Shown here in pieces: positions 38,008 through 39,537 of a stretch of 64,000 nt of DNA. The notes below the pieces were generated by a model. That model had not been told where the DNA came from and made no database searches. It saw only the letters and a program-made list of their open reading frames with translations. This DNA is from Thermococcus sp. P6 (GTDB taxonomy: Archaea; Methanobacteriota_B; Thermococci; Thermococcales; Thermococcaceae), in NCBI RefSeq assembly GCF_002214525.1, contig NZ_CP015104.1:186001-250000 (forward strand). The letters run 5' to 3'. The position numbers and the translations under genes were made by a program. Each line of letters opens with the position of its first letter. The stretch's first letter is position 1.

Positions 38008-38472
38008 TTACCACTGCCTTTTTCTTTCCCCTATGAAGAACTTCATGAAGCCCGAGAAGTCCTCGCCCCGAAAGGCCGCGTAGAGGCTCCCCGTTTCTTC
38101 CGGTGTTAGCCACTCGATGTATTCGGGAATTCCTTCCTCGAAGGTGTAGAGCACTTCATCGTCCTTTCTGGCGACGTCAAGTGTGTAGATCCTCTTTCCG
38201 TGCTTTCTGGCTATCTCGATTTCCCTGACGACGAGGGAGGTGAACTTCCCCACTATAGCCACCGCCACGAAGACGTCCGCCTCCGGTATCATGTGGTCCG
38301 TCATTTTGAGCCCGTAATCCGAAGGAACCACGAAGTTGTTGGAGTTCAGCTTCTCCTCGAGCAGTCTCAGTATGGCCTTCTCGGTGCGCGTATGGTAAAG
38401 TATCGTCGGCTCGCTCAGGTAGACGAGCGGGCCGTGTTTTTCCACCTTCTTTTTCCGGAAGAATCCAAGCAT
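38008..38472 (-). CDS. Hypothetical Rossmann-like protein, possibly nucleoside-hydrolase/TIR-like
   Basis: The 154-residue protein begins MLGFFRKKKVEKHGPLVYLSEPTI. It has alternating helix and strand segments including ADVFVAVAIVGKFTSLVVREIEIARKHGKRIYTLDV, a pattern reminiscent of nucleoside 2-deoxyribosyltransferase or TIR-like sensing folds, but the catalytic Glu cannot be assigned. No signal peptide. The ATG directly follows the closing stem of a C/D box RNA, and the GGTGG ribosome-binding site lies inside that stem. The function is unknown. Confidence 0.6.
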   Translation of the reverse strand: MLGFFRKKKVEKHGPLVYLSEPTILYHTRTEKAILRLLEEKLNSNNFVVPSDYGLKMTDHMIPEADVFVAVAIVGKFTSLVVREIEIARKHGKRIYTLDVARKDDEVLYTFEEGIPEYIEWLTPEETGSLYAAFRGEDFSGFMKFFIGERKRQW

Positions 38473-38537
38473 CGAACCACCTCAGGTGGGGATAATATCA
38501 TCATCCGTCAGGAGGGATGACACTCATCATCGGTTCG
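38473..38537 (-). ncRNA. C/D box small guide RNA (2'-O-methylation guide)
   Basis: On the minus strand, a perfect closing stem (CGAACC 38537-38532 with GGTTCG 38478-38473) encloses box C ATGATGA (38530-38524), guide GTGTCATCCCTC, box D' CTGA (38511-38508), three bases, box C' ATGATGA (38504-38498), guide TATTATCCCCAC, and box D CTGA (38485-38482). Both guides are 12 nt and the D'-C' spacer is 3 nt, as in archaeal sRNPs bound by L7Ae, Nop5 and fibrillarin. A TATA box at 38564-38571 predicts transcription from about 38541. The targets are not identified. Confidence 0.88.
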
Positions 38538-38563
38538 TTCCCTTTCGAAGATCCCTCGTTCAC

Positions 38564-38571
38564 TTAATAAA
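38564..38571 (-). promoter_or_regulatory. TATA box for the C/D RNA and downstream gene
   Basis: TTTATTAA on the minus strand lies about 27 bases before the guide RNA's 5' stem. It should initiate near 38541, so a transcript of RNA plus mRNA is expected. Confidence 0.55.
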
Positions 38572-38634: not shown

Positions 38635-39537
38635 ATGAGGGTAATCCCTCTGGCATCCGAAAGTCTCGGGGTCAGGAGTATGGCAACCTTCGTCGAGGTC
38701 AAGGGAACCGGGGTTCTCATCGACCCCGGGGTGGCACTGGGTCCGAGGCGTTACGGCCTTCCGCCCGCGAGGGTTGAGCTTGAGACCCTCCAGAGGATGA
38801 GGAGGAAGCTTCAGGGTTACGCGAGGAGGGCCGGGGTCATCACCATCTCCCACTACCACTACGACCACCACACGCCCTTCTTCGAGGGCCTCTACGAGAG
38901 CTCGAGCGAGGAGTTTGCGAGGGAGATATACGAAGGAAAGACCCTTCTCATAAAGCACCCCCGCGAGAACATCAACTTCAGCCAGCGAAAAAGGGCTTGG
39001 GCCTTCCTGAAAAATGCAGAGCCGATGGCCAAGGGCATTGAGTTCGCCGACGGAAGGAGCTTTGATTTCGGGGACTTCGTGATGGAGTTCTCTCCGGCGG
39101 TTCCCCACGGAAGGGAAGGCTCGAAGCTCGGCTTCGTCGTTATGGCCCTTATAGACGACGGCACCAGAAGGCTGATCCACGCGAGCGACATCCAGCTCCT
39201 CAACAGAAAGGCCGTGGAATGGATAATCGAGAAGGTTCCGGACCTGCTCATAACGGGTGGACCCCCGAGCTACCTCGGTAAAAGGGTGGAGGGAAGCTGG
39301 GAAACCGGAATCAGGAACCTCAACTGGATAATCCGCGAGACGGACGCGGAAATAATCCTCGATCACCACCTGATAAGGGACAAGAAGTATCTCGAATTCT
39401 TCGAGGAGCTTGATAAAAGGCCGAAGACCTTCGCGGGCTATCTGGGGGTCAACGACAGGCCCCTCGAGGCCTACAGGAGGGAACTGCACAGAATCGAAAG
39501 GGGAGAAAAATTGAAACTGCCCTTTGACCTACGTTGA
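38635..39537 (+). CDS. UPF0282 family metallo-beta-lactamase-fold hydrolase
   Basis: The 300-residue protein has a beta-lactamase-fold core with the di-metal motif HYHYDHH and later PHG, ASDIQ and DHHLI segments that supply remaining ligands. The N-terminus is RVIPLASESLGVRSMATFVE. UPF0282 is archaeal and of unknown substrate. GGGTGG precedes the ATG and GATTTTAA at 38597-38604 serves as TATA. It overlaps the convergent SDR gene by nine bases. Confidence 0.88.
   Translation: MRVIPLASESLGVRSMATFVEVKGTGVLIDPGVALGPRRYGLPPARVELETLQRMRRKLQGYARRAGVITISHYHYDHHTPFFEGLYESSSEEFAREIYEGKTLLIKHPRENINFSQRKRAWAFLKNAEPMAKGIEFADGRSFDFGDFVMEFSPAVPHGREGSKLGFVVMALIDDGTRRLIHASDIQLLNRKAVEWIIEKVPDLLITGGPPSYLGKRVEGSWETGIRNLNWIIRETDAEIILDHHLIRDKKYLEFFEELDKRPKTFAGYLGVNDRPLEAYRRELHRIERGEKLKLPFDLR

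Follow-up and report, generated by a model that had tools for sequence, protein, structure and literature searches.

The sR55 guide RNA of Thermococcales carries a predicted Shine-Dalgarno sequence of the gene that follows it

Within the window, i.e., the whole 64,000-nucleotide stretch of Thermococcus sp. P6 DNA analyzed here, the site at 38473–38537 is a genuine C/D box guide RNA of the family sR55. Its box D and closing stem, CTGAGGTG, hold the putative Shine-Dalgarno sequence of the 154-aa gene that starts directly behind it. The RNA itself was already known, as was, for a class of sRNA genes, a position overlapping the 5′ end of a downstream gene; new here are the linkage of sR55 to this gene and the order-wide fixation of their overlap. 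We consider it fairly probable that one transcript has two competing fates, becoming sR55 RNA or being translated into the 154-aa protein, because removal of the RNA would take the ribosome-binding site with it.

Results

Identity and parts of the guide RNA

An Rfam search placed sR55 (RF01307) at 38480–38534 on the minus strand with 66.4 bits against a gathering threshold of 35 (E = 8.5e-15), the sole Rfam match within the 64-kb window. Of 94 Thermococcales genomes, 83 contain a match above the cut-off of this model, with conserved boxes, whereas no genome of the same class outside the order does. This score and the order-wide occurrence rule out a chance match of the boxes. The earlier note, silent on strand, had described four boxes, two 12-nt guides and a 3-nt D′–C′ spacer. 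All features of the site and of the linked gene lie on the minus strand: boxes C, D′, C′ and D are found there in order, with the guides at 38523–38512 and 38497–38486 and the spacer at 38507–38505. The guide sequences as first written were those of the plus strand, i.e., target-sense. The features are as follows.

38564..38571 (−): TATA box TTTATTAA, presumed promoter of the sR55–gene transcript (sequence and A/T peak)
38473..38535 (−): predicted mature sR55, about 63 nt (analogy with the 67-nt circle of T. kodakarensis, PMC9014305, and alignment)
38532..38534 (−): closing stem, 5′ side, ACC, which pairs with GGT in 46–49 of 49 loci
38524..38530 (−): box C, ATGATGA (sequence)
38512..38523 (−): D′ guide GTGTCATCCCTC, 12 nt, 10 Watson-Crick pairs with 23S rRNA, predicted Gm2516
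38508..38511 (−): box D′, CTGA (sequence)
38505..38507 (−): D′–C′ spacer, CGG, 3 nt (sequence)
38498..38504 (−): box C′, ATGATGA (sequence)
38486..38497 (−): D guide TATTATCCCCAC, 12 nt, 9 Watson-Crick pairs with 23S rRNA, predicted Gm2538
38482..38485 (−): box D, CTGA (sequence)
38478..38483 (−): predicted Shine-Dalgarno sequence GAGGTG, made of the last two bases of box D and GGTG, whose first three bases (GGT) form the 3′ arm of the closing stem
38008..38472 (−): linked 154-aa gene, function unassigned (sR55 immediately precedes a homologue in 79 of 83 genomes)

The three pairs of the in-register closing stem, ACC/GGT, form in 49, 49 and 46 of the 49 linked loci, respectively. A perfect six-base closing stem had been proposed earlier, and CGAACC/GGTTCG is indeed present in the window; however, it would leave GGT (38481–38479) unpaired between box D and the stem, and four of its six pairs form in at most 23 of the 49 loci. 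It was rejected as the conserved closing stem, being in the wrong register for a kink-turn and poorly kept. Folding energies were uninformative, as the predicted folds of the leader RNA, computed for the RNA alone, did not outdo most shuffles (z from −0.37 to −1.46).

Predicted targets in 23S rRNA

The search of the guides against rRNA that the earlier note had proposed returned 23S matches extending across the fifth base from the D or D′ box. With the 23S rRNA of the same genome, 10 bases of the D′ guide form pairs (target CAGG(G)AUGACAG), as do 9 of the D guide (target CUGG(G)GAUAAC), at sites 22 nt apart. Among 20,000 control guide pairs of similar spacing drawn from the window, a single one paired equally well with 23S rRNA. 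The bases predicted to be methylated are G2516 and G2538 in the 23S numbering of this genome. The target sites lie beside the conserved peptidyl-transferase sequence, GGGGAUAAC. The core of the D′ guide, GTCATCCC, is present in 49 of 49 linked loci, with two variable bases next to the box; the 9-base pairing of the D guide is kept in 40 of them and shortened to 6–7 pairs in the other nine. From this complementarity we infer that sR55 directs 2′-O-methylation at two neighbouring 23S sites.

Linkage of sR55 to the 154-aa gene

Two independent searches, one with the RNA family and one with the protein, found sR55 next to a homologue of the 154-aa gene, and in the same orientation, in 79 of the 83 genomes that have both; in 57 genomes, exactly 7 nt separate the end of the Rfam match from the match to the gene. 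As the genomes are related, neither this count nor the 49 of 49 given for linked loci consists of independent cases. Across the linked genomes, protein identity falls to about 50% and the upstream neighbours of the pair vary. Ordinary synteny, or slow rearrangement, was therefore rejected as the cause of the linkage: the pair stays together while its upstream neighbours change. No stop codons were found to interrupt the matches to the 154-aa gene, and its differences from close relatives fall mostly at third codon positions.

Homologues within the genus form two sequence types, about 80–85% and 52–59% identical to the protein of the window, and each type carries sR55, sometimes behind similar upstream sequence. 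The existence of two types suggests that the cassette may have been replaced. The divergent neighbour at 38635–39537 (+) encodes a metallo-beta-lactamase-fold protein (NCBIfam PRK04286) and adjoins the pair in some genomes only.

The 154-aa protein gave no significant match in Pfam, NCBIfam, PHROGs, PADLOC or PDB-sequence searches, and a scan of the named genomes with it led to one locus. An AlphaFold model built from two sequences (pLDDT 72) weakly resembles the fold of nucleoside 2′-deoxyribosyltransferases and TIR domains (best E = 5.5e-3). The product is no recognizable sRNP protein, which leaves the earlier suggestion of an autoregulated gene unsupported.

Promoter and the Thermococcus kodakarensis orthologue

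In a genome (G024) that we take to be T. kodakarensis KOD1, the sR55 matches at 1476852–1476910 and 963854–963913 correspond to the published sR52 and sR31. For sR52, alias Tko-sR54, a transcription start was mapped at 1476850, and a circular junction at 1476851–1476917 defines a 67-nt RNA (±5 nt); it accounts for 28,701 small-RNA reads, and its circular reads drop from 467 in the wild type to 6 in an RNA ligase deletion (PMC9014305). The small RNA of about 65 nt expected at the site is thus represented, in this orthologue only, by a partly circular RNA of 67 nt. The ATG of the linked gene lies at 1476918 in KOD1, one base past the end of the sR52 circle. The idea that the RNA is cleaved out and the mRNA loses its leader fits this circle end, allowing for its ±5 nt.

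The window sR55 and sR52 share the family, the boxes, the D′ guide and the position before the same gene. The former differs in its longer extra stem, which is out of register, and in a TATA box placed a little more upstream, but in nothing essential. Over the 49 loci, an A/T peak lies at −39..−32 from box C, which together with the T. kodakarensis start points to a single promoter ahead of the sR55–gene pair. Initiation at the 5′ end of the guide RNA, as predicted earlier, is borne out by the mapped start in T. kodakarensis, but in the window genome transcription probably starts near 38540–38543, a few bases before the 5′ end first proposed, because its TATA box is shifted upstream by about 7 nt relative to that of T. 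kodakarensis.

A Shine-Dalgarno sequence within the guide RNA

The 16S rRNA ends in ATCACCTCCT, and the simplest reading of GAGGTG is that it serves as the Shine-Dalgarno sequence of the 154-aa gene. GGTG follows box D directly in 49 of 49 linked loci, and it is separated from the start codon by 5 nt in 39 of 50 loci, by 6 nt in 9 and by 7 nt in 2; the fiftieth locus is one in which the C box is lost. The fourth base of GGTG pairs in the stem in only 9 of the 49 loci. As this last G is rarely paired and yet invariant, it is probably kept for translation, which is evidence that the closing stem may be under translational constraint. That the guide RNA and the ribosome-binding site of the downstream gene overlap was first noticed in the window; the overlap is conserved across the order and resides in the D box and C-helix.

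Of the circular C/D RNAs of KOD1, 20 were readable, and GGTG directly follows box D in only two of these, sR52 and sR61, both of which abut start codons. In sR61 (G024:C1:2070050-2070116, minus strand), CTGAGGTG runs directly into an ATG, the start of a NUDIX-domain gene of about 170 aa. This arrangement occurs in at least nine Thermococcus genomes (loci L124-L127, L086, L089, L091, L098, L100, L104 and L105), although the sR61-type RNA scores below every Rfam cut-off. A second conserved cassette, of an sR61-type RNA and a NUDIX gene, suggests that the device arose more than once.

Natural separations of RNA and gene

RNA and gene lie apart in four genomes (G075, G079, G084 and G001), so that the coupling is dispensable rather than essential. 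In the first three, which belong to one genus, a complete sR55 lies about 700–760 nt upstream of the gene; TGAGGTG still precedes the ATG of the gene, where no C box can be recognized. This state (loci L039, 3′ of 1531, L109 and L110) looks like a duplication of sR55 followed by decay of the boxes next to the gene. In G001, sR55 is located elsewhere, its stem reads GCC/GGC with A as the fourth base, and another Shine-Dalgarno sequence precedes the gene. Of the four sR55 copies set apart from the gene, three still have GGTG; translational selection is therefore not the sole way of keeping it.

Discussion

With a promoter upstream of the sRNA and a start codon at its 3′ end, sR55 belongs with the 5′-overlapping sRNA genes. 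According to Tripp 2017, as reviewed in PMC7994747, archaeal C/D sRNA genes often use the promoters of their neighbours, and 7% of sRNA genes overlap the 5′ end of the downstream gene, which lowered reporter output. Eleven snoRNAs were counted in T. kodakarensis leaders, and the possibility of regulation in cis was raised (PMC4247193). sR55 resembles such genes in sharing promoter and sequence with the downstream gene and in having the start codon just past the D box. It differs in that box D and the closing stem appear to form the Shine-Dalgarno sequence and that the pair is kept across the whole order, neither of which we found described in the literature consulted on leader sRNAs.

We favour two competing fates of one transcript over a dedicated switch. 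From a single promoter, the transcript would run from the 5′ end of sR55, or from just before it, into the gene starting at 38472. Where the leader is assembled into an sRNP with L7Ae, Nop5 and fibrillarin, sR55 would be trimmed out and partly circularized; its 3′ end would fall at the start codon, and the Shine-Dalgarno sequence would be removed along with it. Where no sRNP assembles, GAGGTG would be exposed and ribosomes would translate the gene. The coupling would arise from the shared bases, making a dedicated signal unnecessary. Behind this model stand the observed boxes, family, conservation, linkage, invariant GGTG and rRNA complementarity, and the start and circle observed in T. kodakarensis, from which we infer read-through into the gene and competition between the fates. 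As a whole, the earlier interpretation is partly supported. A stronger form, in which the rRNA guide regulates the translation of a conserved gene in cis, with sRNP assembly and the ribosome contending for GAGGTG and the 154-aa protein falling as guide-RNP assembly rises, is put forward only tentatively, and we rather doubt it.

The earlier note had also raised a switch by binding of L7Ae to the kink-turn. In a regulated form of it, free L7Ae on the leader kink-turn would hide the Shine-Dalgarno sequence in the C-helix and repress the gene according to sRNP supply. At the sequence level, the Shine-Dalgarno falls within the kink-turn in all 49 linked loci, matching a structural model in which the Shine-Dalgarno lies in the C-helix and L7Ae occludes the ribosome-binding site (PMC6298567); L7Ae does repress mRNAs with leader kink-turns (PMC5539422), and the idea has been raised for T. 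kodakarensis leaders (PMC4247193). The L7Ae-repressed leaders of l7ae and nop5-fibrillarin likewise have a kink-turn, with the Shine-Dalgarno in or beside the C-helix. However, those leaders are no rRNA guides, whereas the present leader is a full double-guide RNA on which L7Ae action is putative. The 154-aa gene has no known link to sRNPs, and the leader RNA demonstrably becomes a guide RNA, which is enough to account for its boxes. Such a switch is accordingly judged unlikely.

Excision of sR55 might instead be the usual route, with translation of the gene from an mRNA whose 5′ end is the ATG itself. In T. kodakarensis the circle stops at the base preceding the ATG, and leaderless mRNAs occur in that organism (PMC4247193), but a leaderless mRNA has no need of an invariant GGTG placed 5–7 nt from the ATG, and the circle ends are uncertain by ±5 nt; we regard this route as very improbable. 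Hardly probable, too, is a neutral overlap, in which bases shared for historical reasons, and inseparable without damage, have no meaningful effect on either output: overlap by itself would keep the genes adjacent and is a known minority arrangement (7% of surveyed sRNA genes, PMC7994747), yet with the Shine-Dalgarno inside the removed RNA some competition is hard to avoid, and 5′ overlaps reduced reporter output (Tripp 2017).

Together, our results add to the known RNA and its class an overlap fixed across the order, a closing stem whose sequence translation may constrain, and another cassette built alike, in which the gene encodes a NUDIX-domain protein. They provide an order-wide case in which one set of bases would belong at once to the kink-turn, the end of the guide RNA and the ribosome-binding site; T. 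kodakarensis, which is amenable to genetics, has an orthologue. The question from 2014 and 2017, whether leader guide RNAs only borrow promoters or also set downstream expression, can now be tested.
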